DNA of 37,871 bases. Source: a bacterium (GTDB lineage Bacteria > Armatimonadota > Zipacnadia > Zipacnadales > UBA11051). Under the pieces are notes generated by a model. It was not told where the DNA came from. It saw only the letters and a program-made list of their open reading frames with translations, and did not search any database. Location: contig JAUVVY010000039.1 of NCBI GenBank assembly GCA_030604405.1, forward strand, positions 1 to 37,871. The letters are read 5' to 3'. The position numbers were made by a program, and so were the translations under genes. Below, piece by piece: positions 16,262-23,648 of the stretch; within the stretch, counting starts at the first letter, position 1, and every line of letters begins with the position of its first letter.

Positions 16262-17254
16262 ATGAGCCAACGTATCGGTGCCGCGCTGCTCGGAACAGCC
16301 CACGCCCACGCAATCGGCAAGCTGGTGGTCCTGCAGCAGTCGCCTGATTTCGAGCTGGTGGGTGTTTGCGAGCCTGATGCCGAGCTTCTCAAAGCCGCCC
16401 GCGACAGTGAAGCCTTTGCTGAGGTCAGGTGGCTGGACCAGGCGGAGCTTCTCGCTGATGAGACAATAGCGATGATAGCGGTTGAAGGCCGCGTCCGCGA
16501 CAATCTTGGATTTGCACGCGAAGCCCTCGCAGCCGGCAAGCACATTCATCTTGACAAGCCCGCCGGCTCCTGCCTGAGCGAGTTCGAGTCACTCCTGGCC
16601 CTTGCCACAGACAAGCGCCTGGTCGTGCAGATGGGCTACATGTTCCGCTACAACGCCGCCTTCGAGCTGAGTCTGCAGGCGGTTCAGGAGGGCTGGCTGG
16701 GAGAGGTCTTCTACGTGCATGGGGAGATCAACTCTGACATCCCCGACGAAACCCGGCCACAGTTGGCGGAATACCCGGGCGGCATGATGTTCGAGCTTGG
16801 GTGCCATCTCATTGACATGCTCGTGGCAACGCTGGGCGCGCCGCAGACGGTGCAACCCTTCCTGCGCCACGATGGCGACCAGGACGATGGGCTGGATGAC
16901 AACTGCACCGCCATCTTCGAGTTTGACGAGGCCGTGGCGGTCATTCACACGGCGGCTATGGAAGCACACGCCTCAGAGCGCCGCTGCTGGGAGGTCTGCG
17001 GCACAGGCGGTAGCATTATCATCCAGCCGCTGGAGCCGCCTGCGATGCGCATGTGTCTCAAGTCCTCTCAAGGCGGCTTCGAGGCCGGTTGGCAGACGGT
17101 CGAGGTCCCTGATATTCCGCGCTACGTCCGCGACATGGCCGAGCTGGCCGCGTGTATTCGCGGCGAGCGGGAGCCATCGTATGGCCCGCAGCACGATCTG
17201 GCGACCCAGCAGGCCATCTTGTCCGCATGCGGCGTCAAGAGCCCGTTCATCTGA
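16262..17254 (+). CDS. Gfo/Idh/MocA family oxidoreductase (second copy, divergent)
   Basis: The ATG at 16262 follows an AAGGAGAG site at a rather long spacing. The 330-residue protein has the Gfo/Idh/MocA layout with altered signatures. The nucleotide loop reads ALLGTAHAHAIGK instead of GxGxxG, and the usual EKP is LDKP (HIHLDKPAGS). The C-terminal domain has GGMMFELGCHLIDMLV, with the conserved histidine, and QMGYMFRYNAAFEL. These changes are seen in many members annotated only as oxidoreductases in glycan-degrading bacteria. It probably acts on a sugar or polyol in the cytosol with a dinucleotide cofactor, but cofactor binding by the altered loop is less certain. The opine-dehydrogenase-like gene follows after about 200 bp on the same strand. 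Confidence 0.85.
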   Translation: MSQRIGAALLGTAHAHAIGKLVVLQQSPDFELVGVCEPDAELLKAARDSEAFAEVRWLDQAELLADETIAMIAVEGRVRDNLGFAREALAAGKHIHLDKPAGSCLSEFESLLALATDKRLVVQMGYMFRYNAAFELSLQAVQEGWLGEVFYVHGEINSDIPDETRPQLAEYPGGMMFELGCHLIDMLVATLGAPQTVQPFLRHDGDQDDGLDDNCTAIFEFDEAVAVIHTAAMEAHASERRCWEVCGTGGSIIIQPLEPPAMRMCLKSSQGGFEAGWQTVEVPDIPRYVRDMAELAACIRGEREPSYGPQHDLATQQAILSACGVKSPFI

Positions 17255-17452: not shown

Positions 17453-18595
17453 ATGACGCAGAATCGCACATCAGATGCCGGGTCCAAGCCACGCTTTTGT
17501 GTGATGGGTGCGGGGCATGGCGGCATGGCCATGGCTGCCCATCTCTCCCTCAAAGGCTTCAATGTCACGCTTTACAACCGCACTGAAGAGCGCCTTGCTT
17601 TTGTCCGCGAGCGGGGCGTCATCGAGCTGCTAAGCCCCGGACTGGACAACGTCGAATCGGGCGAAGCCAGAATTGATCGGATTACCACCGATGCCGGAGA
17701 GGCCCTGCATGACGCCGACATGGTGATGATCGTGGTGCCGGCGTATGGTCACGCCTTCCTGGCGCAGAAATGTGCGCCCCACCTCCGCGATGACCACATC
17801 GTGGTGCTTAACCCGGGGCGCACCGGCGGGGCCTTGGAGTTCCGCCACCAGCTTCACGAGTGTGGCTGCACCGCCGATCTACTCCTTGCCGAGACGCAGA
17901 CCTTCATCTACGCCAGTCGCGTGACACAGCCGGGTGAGGTGCGTATCTTCGCGGTGAAGAATAACGTGCCGGTGGCGGCTCTACCTGCCTATCGCACCAT
18001 CGAGGTGGTCAAGGCCCTACGCGTGGCGTACCGGCAGTTCGTGGCCGGCGGCAGCGTGCTACAGACTAGCCTCAGCAACGTGGCCCTGATTTTCCATCCT
18101 GGCGTGCTGATGATGAACGCCGCCCGCGTGGAGGACACCCACGGCGAGTTTCAGCACTACCTGGCCGGCATCACGCCCTCGGTCGCAGAGGTCCTGGAAG
18201 CAATGGACCGCGAGCGCGTAGCGCTGGGAGAGGCTCTGGGCATACCCATTCGCAGCACGCGCCAGTGGCTCTACCTGGCCTATGATGCGGCCGGCGTAGA
18301 CCTCTATCACGCGGTCCAGGCCACCCCGGCCTACGAGGGCATTATGGCCCCACCGCATCTGACCCACCGCTACATTCTCGAAGACGTTCCCATGAGCCTG
18401 ATCCCGATGATCTCCCTCGGCCAGCAGCTTGGCGTGCCCACCCCGATCATGTCCTCTGTGGCCCATATCTGTTCCGCCATGCTGGGACAGGACTTCTGGA
18501 GCGTCGGCCGCACCGTGGAAAGCCTCGGTGTCGCCGGCCTGACCGTCAGGCAAATCCGAAGGTTGGTGATGGAAGGTGCACCGGGAGAGCCATAA
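17453..18595 (+). CDS. NAD/NADP octopine/nopaline dehydrogenase family protein
   Basis: The ATG at 17453 has GAGGG about six bases upstream. The 380-residue protein starts with a Rossmann fold (GAGHGG at residues 19-24, VTLYNRTEER). It continues with the octopine dehydrogenase C-terminal domain: ALIFHPGVLMMNAA, a catalytic-type histidine region, and RYILEDVPMSLIPM. The family reductively condenses, or in reverse oxidatively splits, amino acids with keto acids. Related members act on other amino compounds or on hydroxy acids such as ketopantoate. It overlaps the next gene by 20 bp, so the two products are probably made together. That pairing with a cobalamin-binding mutase-like protein suggests amino-acid or amine catabolism rather than opine synthesis. 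The true substrate is unknown. Confidence 0.85.
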   Translation: MTQNRTSDAGSKPRFCVMGAGHGGMAMAAHLSLKGFNVTLYNRTEERLAFVRERGVIELLSPGLDNVESGEARIDRITTDAGEALHDADMVMIVVPAYGHAFLAQKCAPHLRDDHIVVLNPGRTGGALEFRHQLHECGCTADLLLAETQTFIYASRVTQPGEVRIFAVKNNVPVAALPAYRTIEVVKALRVAYRQFVAGGSVLQTSLSNVALIFHPGVLMMNAARVEDTHGEFQHYLAGITPSVAEVLEAMDRERVALGEALGIPIRSTRQWLYLAYDAAGVDLYHAVQATPAYEGIMAPPHLTHRYILEDVPMSLIPMISLGQQLGVPTPIMSSVAHICSAMLGQDFWSVGRTVESLGVAGLTVRQIRRLVMEGAPGEP

Positions 18596-20249
18596 GCCTC
18601 TGGCGCTGGGAGCCGCTCTCGGCAACTGCGTCCACGTGGCGGGCCTGCTCAATTTCATGCGCCTGGCGGCACGGGAAGGCTATCACACAATCTCACTGGG
18701 CACAGCCGTACCGGTCGAGCGTCTGGTCAGCGAAATCGAACGCCTGCAGCCGCAGCTCGTCGCCGTCAGCTACCGCCTGACGCCGGAGGTGGGTCGAGCC
18801 CTGCTCGACGACCTCGCTCGGCAGCTTCGGCAGCAAGGCCTGACAGATCGCAAGTTCATCTTCGGAGGCACGGAGCCAGTGGCGGAGCAGGCCCGGCAGC
18901 TCGGCCTCTTCGACGAGGTCTTCGGCGGGCAAGCCACCCCCGACGACGTTGTTGCCTACTTGCATGGCGGAGTACGCGCGGCCCAGCAGCCCAATCACGC
19001 CGCCACGCTGTTGGAGCGCATCAACAACAACCACGGCCACCCCATAATCCGCCACCACTTCGGCCAGCCGACAGTCGCGGCTACCGTCGAAGGCGCGCGT
19101 CTCATTGCCGAGGCCGAGGTGCTCGACGTGCTTTCCCTGGGCCCGGATCAGAATGCGCAGGAGCATTTCTTCCGCCCCGACCAGATGCGCCCCGAACTGA
19201 CTGGCGCGGGGGGAGTGCCACTGCGCAGACCCGAGGACCTGCAGGCCATCTACCGGGCTACTCGCTGCGGCAACTATCCGCTCCTGCGCATATATGCCGG
19301 AACGCGGGACCTGATCCAGTGGGCGGAGATGTCCGTCCCTAACCTCCGCAACGCCTGGGGCGCTATTCCCCTCTTCTGGTATAACCAGCTCGACGGCCGC
19401 TCCGATCGCTCGCCGGTAGAGAGCATTGCCGAAAACCAGCAGACCATGCGCTGGTACGCCGAACACGACATCCCCGTGGAGTGCAACGAGGCCCACCACT
19501 GGAGCCTGCGCGATGCTCACGATGGCGTGGCAGTAGCTGCGGCCTTCCTGGGCGCATACAATGCCAGGGCCGTGGGGGTGACCCATTATGTCGCCCAGTA
19601 CATGTTCAACACGCCCGCCATGACCTTCCCGCTCATGGATCTGGCCAAGATGCTGGCCAAGCAGACCCTGATTGAGCGGCTGCATGACGACAACTTCGTG
19701 TCTATTACGCAGACCCGGGCCGGCCTCGGCTGCTTCCGCGCCAATCCACACGAGGCCAAGGGGCAACTGGGCGCTAACACCGTGCTGCAGTTGGCCCTCG
19801 AACCGCAGATCGTCCACGTGGTCGGCTACAGCGAGGGCGACCACGCCATTACCGCGCCGGAATTGATCGAAAGTTGCCACATCGTTGAGGGTGCCCTGGC
19901 CCAGTGCCTCGAGGGCATGCCCGACACCACGCTGGATGAGCGAGTGATCGCCCGGCGAGATGAGCTGATTGAGGAGGCCGACCTGATCCTCGCCGCCATC
20001 CAGCAGCTTGCCTGTCCTGAGCCTGCCGAAGAGGGCCAAGAGCTGGCCGATCCCTGGGCCGACCCACAGGTGCTGGCAGAAGCTGTTAAGCTAGGCATCA
20101 TGGATGCCCCACACCTCATCGGCAACCCGCACGCATACGGTCACACCTGCGCCATGCTGGTGGACGGCGCCTTCAGGGCCGTGGATCCGCAAACGGGGAC
20201 GCCCCTCACCGAGCGGGAGCGGCTCACGCGGCTCGGTCTCGAGATGTGA
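18576..20249 (+). CDS. Cobalamin-binding protein with glutamate-mutase-like barrel domain
   Basis: The most complete start is a GTG at 18576, inside the end of the preceding gene. The next ATG (18657) would remove the cobalamin-ligand strand. Residues 9-130 form a B12-binding Rossmann domain. LGNCVHVAGLLNF holds the His20 ligand position, with Cys in place of the usual Asp of DxHxxG, and IFGGTEP is the later glycine motif. The remaining 400 residues or so look like the TIM barrel of coenzyme-B12 mutases such as glutamate mutase component E: AIPLFWYNQLDGRS, VECNEAHHWSLRDAHDG and, near the end, KLGIMDAPHLIGNPHAYG. An N-terminal B12 domain fused to such a barrel is an unusual order. A repeat element encodes PEPAEEG at residues 481-487. 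Mutase activity is inference. Confidence 0.65.
   Translation: MHRESHKPLALGAALGNCVHVAGLLNFMRLAAREGYHTISLGTAVPVERLVSEIERLQPQLVAVSYRLTPEVGRALLDDLARQLRQQGLTDRKFIFGGTEPVAEQARQLGLFDEVFGGQATPDDVVAYLHGGVRAAQQPNHAATLLERINNNHGHPIIRHHFGQPTVAATVEGARLIAEAEVLDVLSLGPDQNAQEHFFRPDQMRPELTGAGGVPLRRPEDLQAIYRATRCGNYPLLRIYAGTRDLIQWAEMSVPNLRNAWGAIPLFWYNQLDGRSDRSPVESIAENQQTMRWYAEHDIPVECNEAHHWSLRDAHDGVAVAAAFLGAYNARAVGVTHYVAQYMFNTPAMTFPLMDLAKMLAKQTLIERLHDDNFVSITQTRAGLGCFRANPHEAKGQLGANTVLQLALEPQIVHVVGYSEGDHAITAPELIESCHIVEGALAQCLEGMPDTTLDERVIARRDELIEEADLILAAIQQLACPEPAEEGQELADPWADPQVLAEAVKLGIMDAPHLIGNPHAYGHTCAMLVDGAFRAVDPQTGTPLTERERLTRLGLEM
20016..20035 (+). repeat. In-frame copy of the CCTGAGC...CCGAAGAGGG repeat inside a coding region
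   Basis: The 20 bases match the CCCTGAGC..GTCGAAGGG element seen at 2953 and 11382, apart from C/T changes and a GA insertion. Here it encodes PEPAEEG within the cobalamin-binding protein. It falls in a likely linker between a helical stretch (LIEEADLILAAIQQL) and the conserved C-terminal part (LGIMDAPH). The reading frame is kept. Confidence 0.6.
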
Positions 20250-20621: not shown

Positions 20622-21395
20622 ATGCCTAAGCTTATCAAGTCTCTCCAGGATTTCACCCGTTTCATTGACGGGTTGCCTGACGAACACATCCATTGGTACC
20701 GGGGATGCGGCAAGGCGTCCTACGAGCTCGTCCCAACGTTGTACCGTCACCCCCAGAAACGGTCGATAGGCGAGCGGCTACAACTCGAAAGCGATCTGCT
20801 CTCGTGGTTCAAGGATAGAAGTGTTCTATATCAAATACGACAGTTAGCGGGCGACTGGGAATATCTGTTCTTCATGCAGCACTTTCGAGTACCAACTCGG
20901 CTGCTGGACTGGACGGAGAACCCATTCATCGCCTTGTACTTCGCGCTTACAGCTGAGCGGTCCCCGTGCGCCAAGACTGCAGCGGTGTGGGTGCTAGAGC
21001 CGGAGACGTGGAATCAGACTGCGCTTGAAACGCTCGGCTACGGTCCGCGTATTCCCTACTCCGGAGACGTGGAATTGCAGTCTCATAAGCCACGCTGCCC
21101 CGAAGAGTATCTCAGACCGAGCCCGGTCGCGATGTTCGGCATGTACAGCAGCGTTCGAATGGCTGCGCAAAGGGGCACATTCGTCATATTCGGCAAGAAA
21201 ATGGGGCCGATGGAAGAGATCTACAGCGAGGACAACTTGCCCGCGCACAGCTTGGTTAAGCTGGAGATACCGGCGAAGAGCCGCGGTTCTCTGTTGAGCT
21301 CTTTGCTCAGGGCTGGCATCACCGAGTCGGTGGTTCTTCCAGACATCGAAGGCTTGGCAATGGAAGCAATACGCCACTTTGGGTTCGAGGTGTAA
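20622..21395 (+). CDS. FRG domain protein
   Basis: The ATG at 20622 has a modest AGGGA site. The 257-residue protein matches the FRG family. HWYRGCG (residues 24-30) holds the namesake RG, and LVPTLYR (36-42) follows. QHFRVPTRLLDWTENP (86-101) leads into a helix with ALYFAL, and a later block reads AAQRGTFVIFG. FRG proteins are cytosolic, of undetermined biochemistry, and recur in phage-defence and toxin-like neighbourhoods. No membrane segment or signal peptide is present. The DUF262 gene starts seven bases after its stop, so the two are almost certainly one transcript. By eye, codon use here is less GC-biased than in the flanking metabolic genes, which suggests acquisition by transfer. The defence role is inferred. 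Confidence 0.85.
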   Translation: MPKLIKSLQDFTRFIDGLPDEHIHWYRGCGKASYELVPTLYRHPQKRSIGERLQLESDLLSWFKDRSVLYQIRQLAGDWEYLFFMQHFRVPTRLLDWTENPFIALYFALTAERSPCAKTAAVWVLEPETWNQTALETLGYGPRIPYSGDVELQSHKPRCPEEYLRPSPVAMFGMYSSVRMAAQRGTFVIFGKKMGPMEEIYSEDNLPAHSLVKLEIPAKSRGSLLSSLLRAGITESVVLPDIEGLAMEAIRHFGFEV

Positions 21396-21402
21396 GCAGG
21401 CC

Positions 21403-22467
21403 ATGTTCGACATGGAGGCTCACGATCCAAAGCCATTGGAATGGTGGTACGAGAGGCGAGATGATATCGATTTCGAGGCCGACTACCAAAGGCGGGGTGG
21501 TATCTGGGCTCCAAAGGCCAAGGCGTACCTCATCGATTCCATTCTGAACCGGTACGACATACCTAAGATATACGTGGCGGACTTCACTCGCGCCGATAGC
21601 CCGCTCAACAAGAATAAGAAAATGTACGCCATTATCGATGGAAAGCAACGGTTCGAAGCAGTATTCGACTTTTTCGATGAGAAGCTGGCACTCGACAGCA
21701 AGTTCGTGTACCAGGGGGATTCCTCGTTGGACTTGAGGAGGCTCTGCTACAGCGACCTGCGGTCACGGCACCCGTCGGTCTGCAGCGTCTTTGATAACTA
21801 CGAGCTTGCCGTCATGAGCGTCATAACTGATGAGGAAGGAAAGCTCGAAGAGCTCTACGTGCGCCTCAACAAGAACAGCAAGGCGCTCACAGGGGCAGAG
21901 GTGCGGAACGCGATGCCCGGGATAGTGCCCGTACTCGCACGAGAATTGCCGGAACACGCCTTCTTCGCGTCCAAGATCAAGTTCACAGTCCTCCGCTACC
22001 AAGACAGGGACGTTGCCGCAAAGCTGCTTCTCATTGAGTATAGTGGCAAGTTGGTGAGTACGAAGAAGAAAGACCTTGACAGGTTCGCAGAGCAGATAAC
22101 GCTGGAAGAGGGACCTGACACGGAACCCTACCAGAAGGCCGCTGCACAAGCGCGGACAGTCCTTGACACCATGGCGAAAGTGTTCGCCGACGACGATGTT
22201 CTCCTCGGAGGCCAAGGGATAGTGCCCGTGTACTACTGGTTGGTCAAGGAGTACGGGAAGCGCCACAAAGACTTGATCCGGCCATTTCTGGTGGAATTCG
22301 AGCAGGGCCGCAAAGAGAACGACCGGCGGGCGAGGGATGGCGGCAAGGACGTCGACCGACAGCTTTTGCGCTACAGCAATGTCAAGAGAAGCCATAATGA
22401 CGAAGGCGCTATGAGGGAAATGTACGACGTACTGGCCGGACGTTTCGAAGGATTCCTTCAGCGTTAG
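21403..22467 (+). CDS. DUF262 (ParB/GmrS-type nuclease-like) domain protein
   Basis: The ATG at 21403 lies seven bases after the FRG stop codon; an in-frame TTG at 21379 would overlap FRG. The N-terminal part has the DUF262 signatures YQRRGGIW (residues 28-35) and IIDGKQR (77-83). In GmrSD-like type IV restriction enzymes these belong to the nucleotide-dependent DNA-cleaving ParB-like fold. A later RLNKNSKALTGAEVRNAM block is also typical. At 354 residues it lacks the DUF1524 HNH nuclease domain of full GmrSD enzymes, so cleavage, if any, would depend on DUF262 itself or on a partner. It is flanked by FRG upstream and a methyltransferase 77 bp downstream. A restriction-like or signalling role in defence is inferred. 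Confidence 0.85.
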   Translation: MFDMEAHDPKPLEWWYERRDDIDFEADYQRRGGIWAPKAKAYLIDSILNRYDIPKIYVADFTRADSPLNKNKKMYAIIDGKQRFEAVFDFFDEKLALDSKFVYQGDSSLDLRRLCYSDLRSRHPSVCSVFDNYELAVMSVITDEEGKLEELYVRLNKNSKALTGAEVRNAMPGIVPVLARELPEHAFFASKIKFTVLRYQDRDVAAKLLLIEYSGKLVSTKKKDLDRFAEQITLEEGPDTEPYQKAAAQARTVLDTMAKVFADDDVLLGGQGIVPVYYWLVKEYGKRHKDLIRPFLVEFEQGRKENDRRARDGGKDVDRQLLRYSNVKRSHNDEGAMREMYDVLAGRFEGFLQR

Positions 22468-22544
22468 TCACGGCTCGGATGGGTTCGGGTCTGGTCAGGA
22501 AGAATGCACGAACGTAGGCAAGCACTCATGAGGCAAGGAGATCA

Positions 22545-23648
22545 ATGAGTTCTATCGGTCTGCAAACGGCGATAGGGCGCTGGGCCGGTCTCGGGCCGTA
22601 CTACGCCATGTTTCCGGTTGACTTCGCCTTCAATGTGGTGGCCGAGTTCACGCGGCCGGGAGACGCCGTGCTGGACCCATTCGCCGGCAGGGCCTCCAGC
22701 ATCTACGCTGCGGGTGCCTGTAGTAGATCCGGCCTAGGGATTGAGATCAACCCCGTCGGTTGGCTATACGGTCGTGTCAAGGTGAGTCCGGCCACCAGGG
22801 GAAGGGTACTTAAGCGCCTCGAGCAACTGGGTGAAATGGCGTTGTCTGTGGATGTTCAGCCACCAGAGGACACGGGAGAGTTTTTCACACGGTGCTACTC
22901 CCCGAGGGTCCTCAGCTTCCTGACAGTATGCAGGGACAGATTGAGGTGGCGTGAGGGCAAGGTGGACGGGACGTTGATGGCGATAATGCTGGTCTACCTT
23001 CACGGCAAGAGGTCGGCGTCGCTGTCGAATCAGATGCGCCAAGGCAAAGCCATGAGCCCCGACTATTCCGTGCGCTGGTGGCAGGAGAGGGGGTTGGAGC
23101 CGCCCGAGGTCGATCCAGTGGAGTTCCTGAGGCAGCGGATCGAGTGGCGATATGCGAAAGGGACGCCAAAGCTCTCTTCAGCGAAGGTGATCCTGGGCGA
23201 TAGTAGGACTGAAGTCCAGCGGCTGTCCCGAATGCTTGCCGACGGGAGAATTCGGGACTTCGACCTGCTTTTCACCTCTCCGCCGTATTGTGGCGTGACA
23301 AACTACCACGCCGATCAGTGGCTGCGCCTGTGGATGCTCGGAGGGCCGCCCCGTCCCGTGAGCGGCGACGGTTTCTCGCGGGGCAGATTCTGCGCGAGAG
23401 ATCAGTACCTTGAGCTGTTGACCAAGGTCTTTGGTGGCTGCGCCGAACTCCTTAACAGAGACGCGACAATCTACGTAAGGACCGACGCACGCCCTTTCAC
23501 ATTCGAAGCTACCCTGGACACTCTGCAGACAGCGTTTCCCGGGAAGTCTTTGGCCATACGGTCGAGGCCATACCTAAGGGAGACCCAGACGGCTCTCTTT
23601 GGCGATAATGCGCACAAGCCCGGCGAAATGGACATCATATTGACATGA
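22545..23648 (+). CDS. DNA methyltransferase (amino-methyltransferase, SPPY type)
   Basis: The ATG at 22545 is preceded by AAGGAGA at ideal spacing. The 367-residue protein has the two hallmark motifs of adenine-N6 or cytosine-N4 DNA methyltransferases. The AdoMet-binding motif DPFAGRAS is at residues 44-51, followed by the acidic GIEINP at 65-70. The catalytic motif TSPPY is at 244-248 (FDLLFTSPPYCG). AdoMet binding comes first, catalysis comes near residue 245, and about 170 residues between them could hold target recognition. This order resembles the alpha group, although the SPPY form is commonest in the beta group. It would modify host DNA. With the DUF262 and FRG genes upstream it could protect self DNA or mark it for a restriction-like system. 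Confidence 0.85.
   Translation: MSSIGLQTAIGRWAGLGPYYAMFPVDFAFNVVAEFTRPGDAVLDPFAGRASSIYAAGACSRSGLGIEINPVGWLYGRVKVSPATRGRVLKRLEQLGEMALSVDVQPPEDTGEFFTRCYSPRVLSFLTVCRDRLRWREGKVDGTLMAIMLVYLHGKRSASLSNQMRQGKAMSPDYSVRWWQERGLEPPEVDPVEFLRQRIEWRYAKGTPKLSSAKVILGDSRTEVQRLSRMLADGRIRDFDLLFTSPPYCGVTNYHADQWLRLWMLGGPPRPVSGDGFSRGRFCARDQYLELLTKVFGGCAELLNRDATIYVRTDARPFTFEATLDTLQTAFPGKSLAIRSRPYLRETQTALFGDNAHKPGEMDIILT

Follow-up and report, generated by a model that had tools for sequence, protein, structure and literature searches.

The window analysed here, i.e., the whole 37,871-nucleotide stretch of an Armatimonadota contig, carries an opine-dehydrogenase-family gene followed by a gene for a predicted B12-dependent, glutamate-mutase-like protein (Table 1). 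The original prediction, made from the sequence of the window, had described a 20-bp overlap of the two coding regions, a second protein resembling a cobalamin-dependent mutase with its B12 domain at the N terminus, and a Cys at position 18 where the DxHxxG motif has Asp. The reading frames on the forward strand share exactly this common stretch, the Pfam match places the B12 domain at the N-terminal end of the 557-aa protein, and the mutase-like character is borne out by fold and profile comparisons. Cys18 is likewise present, within the degenerate motif G16-N17-C18-V19-H20-V21-A22-G23, but it proved to be the rule of the family and no peculiarity of the window gene.

Table 1. Features of the dehydrogenase-B12 protein pair in the window.
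Feature	Position	Strand	Remarks
Opine-dehydrogenase-family gene (CENDH/octopine DH type)	17453..18595	+	380 aa, ATG start; PF02317, 1bg6 match
B12-dependent glutamate-mutase-like protein (predicted)	18576..20249	+	557 aa, GTG start; PF02310, Foldseek, HHalign
Frame overlap of the dehydrogenase and B12 genes	18576..18595	+	20 bp
N-terminal B12-binding domain (residues 10-120) with SYRLTP and GGT motifs	18603..18935	+	PF02310
C18-V19-H20, Cys for the Asp of DxHxxG; His20 kept, presumed cobalt ligand	18627..18635	+	
TIM-barrel-like domain (about residues 152-450), predicted homologue of glutamate mutase epsilon	19029..19925	+	AF2 model, Foldseek, HHalign
Glu420, invariant, aligned with glutamate mutase Glu330	19833..19835	+	

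The window holds further genes around the pair. A 904-aa protein with a C-terminal heparinase II/III-like domain (PF07940; 11595-14306) adjoins a PD40 propeller protein, and the two look like a polysaccharide degradation set. The Gfo/Idh/MocA gene (16262-17254) was rejected as a possible third partner: neither L005, a 93%-identical relative, nor L002 has any trace of it upstream of its own pair. None of the third-gene types found in relatives follows the window pair, where a cluster of FRG, DUF262 and methyltransferase genes comes next. The consecutive genes of this cluster (20622-23648) encode an FRG-domain protein (PADLOC PDC-S15, 1.6e-45), a DUF262/GmrSD_N-like protein (PADLOC NsnA, 1.4e-21) and an N4/N6 DNA methyltransferase; the row looks like a small defence cassette, with the pair on one side and a pectate-lyase-like gene on the other, after which the window holds an rpoB-rpoC-S12-EF-G block. 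A search with Rfam of the window and four further loci revealed neither a B12 riboswitch nor any other RNA family near the pair.

The dehydrogenase was compared with Pfam families and solved structures. The 380-aa ORF matched PF02317 (Octopine_DH, 1.4e-45) together with several Rossmann families, and among solved structures it is closest to Arthrobacter N-(1-D-carboxyethyl)-L-norvaline dehydrogenase (CENDH, 1bg6; 4.9e-80), with homology over the full length; octopine dehydrogenase (3c7a) is a weaker match (4e-13). Residues H202, R292 and D297 of CENDH align to H215, R306 and D311 of the window dehydrogenase, of which the first two are invariant and the third is kept in more than 90% of the sequences (19 relatives). 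The first gene is predicted to encode a complete opine-type NAD(P) dehydrogenase.

In the B12 protein, Pfam recognised the B12-binding family PF02310 (residues 10-120, 4e-11) and no second family. The window motif CVHVAG keeps the His and Gly of DxHxxG and has Cys for Asp, so that the canonical motif is not present. Across the family, position 18 is Cys in 95/96 sequences and Asp in one (L086), and His20 is found in 97/97. In divergent homologues encoded beside a homologous dehydrogenase the motif reads DAHTLG (L026/L209) or DAHMLG (L210). On the simplest reading of these sequences, His20 would still ligand the cobalt, as in B12-binding domains of the His-on type, and Cys would take the place of the relay Asp. 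The window genome encodes a CobA/BtuR adenosyltransferase (227 bits) and, by contrast, contains no PduO adenosyltransferase; with CobA/BtuR present, the host should be able to make adenosylcobalamin.

The catalytic half of the protein was assigned by modelling and profile comparison. Foldseek comparison of a confident AlphaFold2 model (pLDDT 88, pTM 0.80) with solved structures ranked glutamate mutase epsilon first (1cb7_B; E 1.5e-15, TM 0.66 by target length); the E-values of methylmalonyl-CoA mutase and of the ornithine and lysine aminomutases are poorer by some seven orders of magnitude. Consistent with this, HHalign of a 98-member family profile against a 31-member MutE profile gave an E-value of 1.3e-5 over 418 collinear columns. 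The Pfam model PF06368 scores several family members at 19-27 bits, one of them, at a known family locus, above the 26.6 cut-off; the window protein itself has no PF06368 match in Pfam, and further matches of similar length, which are candidate members, score 18-31 bits. Glu330 of glutamate mutase corresponds to Glu420, invariant in 98/98 sequences, and Tyr177 to Tyr269; Lys326 and Glu171 are replaced in the B12 family, and the three claw arginines (Arg66/100/149) map ambiguously. In the 1cb7/1i9c literature, Arg66/100/149, Glu171, Lys326 and Glu330 are the residues of glutamate mutase that contact substrate and cofactor. Since Lys326 and Glu171 are not kept and the arginine claw is not firmly mapped, the substrate must differ from that of glutamate mutase. 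By profile and model, the barrel appears to be remotely homologous to the glutamate mutase epsilon chain; in its mode of action the protein most likely resembles enzymes of the glutamate-mutase type, yet it is not glutamate mutase. Judged only from the fold, the cofactor would be adenosyl- rather than methylcobalamin. No MutE was found in the window genome or in 40 relatives, so that the B12 family is no accessory of a classical mutase there; true MutE occurs alongside the family in two Halanaerobiales genomes and one Acidobacteriota genome.

Conservation of the pair, to which the original prediction had looked as its check, was assessed across 84,980 genomes, one for each species; the scan gave 407 related stretches, the best 80 of which were kept. 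In these best 80 of 407 loci the two genes are never far apart: in 79 the dehydrogenase gene immediately precedes the mutase gene in the same orientation, and in the remaining one (L104) it is directly downstream and convergent. Among 61 relatives of the window genome, 31 have a B12-protein match, some of them to the B12 domain only; wherever the full protein is present on a sufficient length of contig, a dehydrogenase adjoins it. Frame overlaps of 4-26 bp are usual in close relatives, the order of the pair and its overlap or near-overlap are kept across many genomes, and the adjacency recurs in independently drawn genomes. Protein distances of dehydrogenase and mutase are correlated (Spearman 0.56 over 69 loci; as high in 0/500 permutations), as expected of co-inheritance, with species phylogeny alone also contributing. 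The 80 loci span more than ten phyla; carriers include Armatimonadota/Zipacnadia/WS1, Aminicenantes, Bacteroidota, Ignavibacteria, Acidobacteriota, Gemmatimonadota, Chloroflexi, Planctomycetota, Firmicutes, Halanaerobiales, Desantisbacteria, Stahlbacteria, Hebobacteria and one archaeal MAG, with single taxon labels being soft because most carriers are metagenome-assembled. Halothermothrix orenii and Candidatus Formimonas warabiya are carriers that can be cultured. Plasmids gave no match to the B12 protein. The pair is a near-obligate module of co-inherited neighbours, far beyond chance.

Clustering of the neighbourhoods gave one strong signal, an AsnB-like gene that lies directly downstream in 23/80 loci and nearby in 28, and that was met again in three independently reached genomes (L215, L216, L217). 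Nearly all AsnB-like genes of these operons belong to a subfamily with LESFDxxLVRSS in place of the ETYDVTTIRAS of AsnB. The glutaminase nucleophile Cys2 is lost in 24 members that form one supported clade (96/95) and whose glutaminase domain is also shortened in most cases, and basal operon members retain MCGI; this distribution suggests a single loss of the Cys within the subfamily. Among 296 Bacteroidota genomes, a draw centred on one of the three carriers, the subfamily was found in exactly the three genomes with a full-length mutase and adjacent to it in 3/3 (609-747 bits, vs at most 271 elsewhere); a fourth genome (G615) has only a divergent 638-aa mutase homologue. The 61 relatives of the window genome yielded four strong AsnB-like matches, 4/4 in mutase carriers and 3/4 on contigs other than that of the mutase. 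The AsnB of Halanaerobiales (L091, L110, L211) was rejected as a member of the module, as it is an ordinary AsnB on a separate long branch and has no LESFD signature.

Other lineages differ in what follows the pair. In L210 (1792-4649 of G023 contig 568) the dehydrogenase and a DAHMLG-type mutase are followed by a D-Ala-D-Ala-ligase-like ATP-grasp gene; this operon is a second, paralogous copy, the same genome also carrying the main pair. Aminicenantes often have TldD/TldE (PmbA) directly downstream of the mutase (L038, L042-L044, L051, L059, L062, L071), and at several Aminicenantes loci nadB/nadC lie divergently upstream of the pair. In some relatives within the window's order, an HPS-RraA aldolase fusion and a PanE-like reductase are found downstream. 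A MarC/NAAT-family membrane protein comes after the AsnB-like gene in L049, L063, L081, L099 and L217, with a DUF389 membrane protein nearby in some; these proteins are possible product exporters. A Halanaerobia locus (L212, 5290-14427) encodes a 450-aa dehydrogenase, a 730-aa mutase with insertions, a metallophosphoesterase, a methyltransferase, a deaminase and an AsnB-like protein lacking the MCGI start, and looks like a diversified biosynthetic cluster.

To judge from sequence, the pair together probably makes an unusual amino-acid compound. We know of no characterised pathway that joins B12 radical chemistry to opine chemistry. The scheme that we favour, with confidence a little above even, couples an adenosylcobalamin-dependent, glutamate-mutase-like rearrangement to an opine-type reductive amination, often with amidation of a carboxylate, and leads to a non-proteinogenic amino-acid derivative. 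Homolysis of adenosylcobalamin on the B12 protein would set off a radical 1,2-rearrangement in an amino (di)acid. The dehydrogenase would form (or, less likely, break) a secondary-amine C-N bond of the mutase substrate or product, joining a 2-oxo acid to an amino acid (or ammonia) in an NAD(P)H-dependent reductive condensation. Either order of the mutase and dehydrogenase steps fits this scheme. In the three-gene lineages, ATP would then activate the carboxylate of the product and the AsnB-like enzyme would form the amide, from glutamine-derived ammonia at first and from free ammonia or another amine later in the evolution of the enzyme; in the divergent operon L210, the ATP-grasp ligase would perform the amidation instead. 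The window's own genome contains no AsnB-like partner, so that the amidation step would not be universal.

A more far-reaching version, which we put forward tentatively and with some doubt, would make the B12 protein a new class of adenosylcobalamin mutase that rearranges the opine itself, i.e., an N-carboxyalkyl amino acid, before amidation in many lineages, with a Cys-tuned His-on cobalamin and a place in a widespread, unrecognised anaerobic pathway that would yield a small molecule.

The direction of the pathway could also be the reverse. A catabolic module would rearrange opines or N-carboxyalkyl amino acids (e.g. glycation-type adducts) and then split them oxidatively to an amino acid and a 2-oxo acid. 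CENDH-type enzymes are reversible, and both the TldD/TldE peptidases of Aminicenantes and the HPS-RraA fusion with the PanE-like reductase in relatives of the window's order are compatible with breakdown. However, the commonest third gene, tied to the mutase, encodes an ATP-using amidating or ligating enzyme, and the clustered neighbourhoods show no opine uptake system recurring beside the pair. We consider breakdown unlikely, and it is because of the ATP-using third gene of other lineages that biosynthesis is the preferred direction.

Less probable again is that the B12 protein serves as a corrinoid methyl-transfer protein and not as an adenosylcobalamin mutase. Its B12 domain does score best with the corrinoid proteins of methyltransferases and with MetH, and its SYRLTP motif is similar to the SGLITP of MetH. 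The catalytic half, however, resembles glutamate mutase epsilon and has no known methyltransferase fold, and no methyltransferase partner is a frequent neighbour in the clustered neighbourhoods.

The third gene allows one further alternative, in which the mutase would turn an N-(1-carboxyethyl) group into N-(2-carboxyethyl) and the AsnB-like enzyme would close a lactam on the resulting N-carboxyalkyl amino acid. Beta-lactam synthetase and CarA, whose substrates are N-carboxyalkyl amino acids, have lost the glutaminase Cys, a mark that most of the AsnB-like enzymes share, and both score with the AsnB-like family. The sequence nevertheless scores 255 bits with AsnB (1ct9) and far less, 97 and 90, with beta-lactam synthetase and CarA. 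As the basal operon members, with MCGI, keep the glutaminase, ammonia rather than cyclisation was probably the original chemistry, and we regard lactam closure as very improbable. Least credible of all is a chance neighbourhood or a degenerate, non-catalytic B12 domain, which the Cys in the cobalamin motif and the loss of Lys326 might suggest, but against which stand the adjacency over more than ten phyla, the invariant His20, the natural Asp variant and the DAHTLG and DAHMLG versions beside a homologous dehydrogenase.

The favoured route, rearrangement coupled to reductive amination, concerns a family that had been described before. The original prediction had suggested that the B12-dependent route may be undescribed, and on this point it was not supported. 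The part of their work in which Zhang, Rodionov, Gelfand and Gladyshev (2009; PMC2667541) treat this family predicts it from 11 bacteria in four groups as having an N-terminal B12 domain and being 'always adjacent' to octopine/nopaline dehydrogenase (PF02317), several organisms having a D-Ala:D-Ala ligase and an asparagine synthase in the neighbourhood; a TIM barrel is predicted there in general terms, and no enzyme class is given. The genome paper of Halothermothrix orenii noted the operon Hore_09740/Hore_09750 and saw in the B12 protein a distant resemblance to methionine synthase (PMC2626281). In the H. orenii pair, which we take to be L207, the dehydrogenase precedes the mutase at about 1.06 Mb, in the same order as in the window, and the mutase is 52% identical to that of the window. 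No later functional work on the family or the pair was found in the open-access literature, subscription papers lying outside the search. The earlier reading of the window is thus partly supported: it was right in direction, the family had already been predicted, and the locus poses a good testable problem rather than a new discovery. To this earlier knowledge the present analysis adds the homology with glutamate mutase, the finding that the Cys is fixed, a wider distribution, and how the third gene evolved and co-occurs with the mutase. A B12 family predicted in 2009, apparently with no function assigned to it since, is present in hundreds of bacterial genomes, mostly from uncultured organisms, and its fold class, near-universal dehydrogenase partner and co-inherited amidating enzyme reduce the question to a route of two or three steps that can be tested.

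Compared with known systems, the window protein agrees with the family of Zhang et al. (2009) in having an N-terminal B12 domain on about 550 aa and a gene that adjoins an octopine/nopaline dehydrogenase, and it differs from the members with an asparagine synthase or ligase nearby in having no third gene. The third gene of many relatives is a homologue of AsnB, set apart by its LESFDxxLVRSS loop and shortened glutaminase domain, and most of these enzymes resemble beta-lactam synthetase and CarA in the lost glutaminase Cys. With glutamate (methylaspartate) mutase, i.e., MutE and MutS, the B12 protein has in common the epsilon barrel, remote homology over the 418 columns, a Glu at the position of Glu330 and a B12 domain of the same fold; unlike that enzyme, it is a single chain with the B12 domain at its N terminus, has Cys for Asp, belongs to a family without Lys326 and Glu171, and has a dehydrogenase partner. 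That partner shares with CENDH and octopine dehydrogenase full-length homology, a Rossmann domain and the aligned catalytic His, Arg and Asp, and differs from both in that its gene is coupled to a gene for a B12 mutase.
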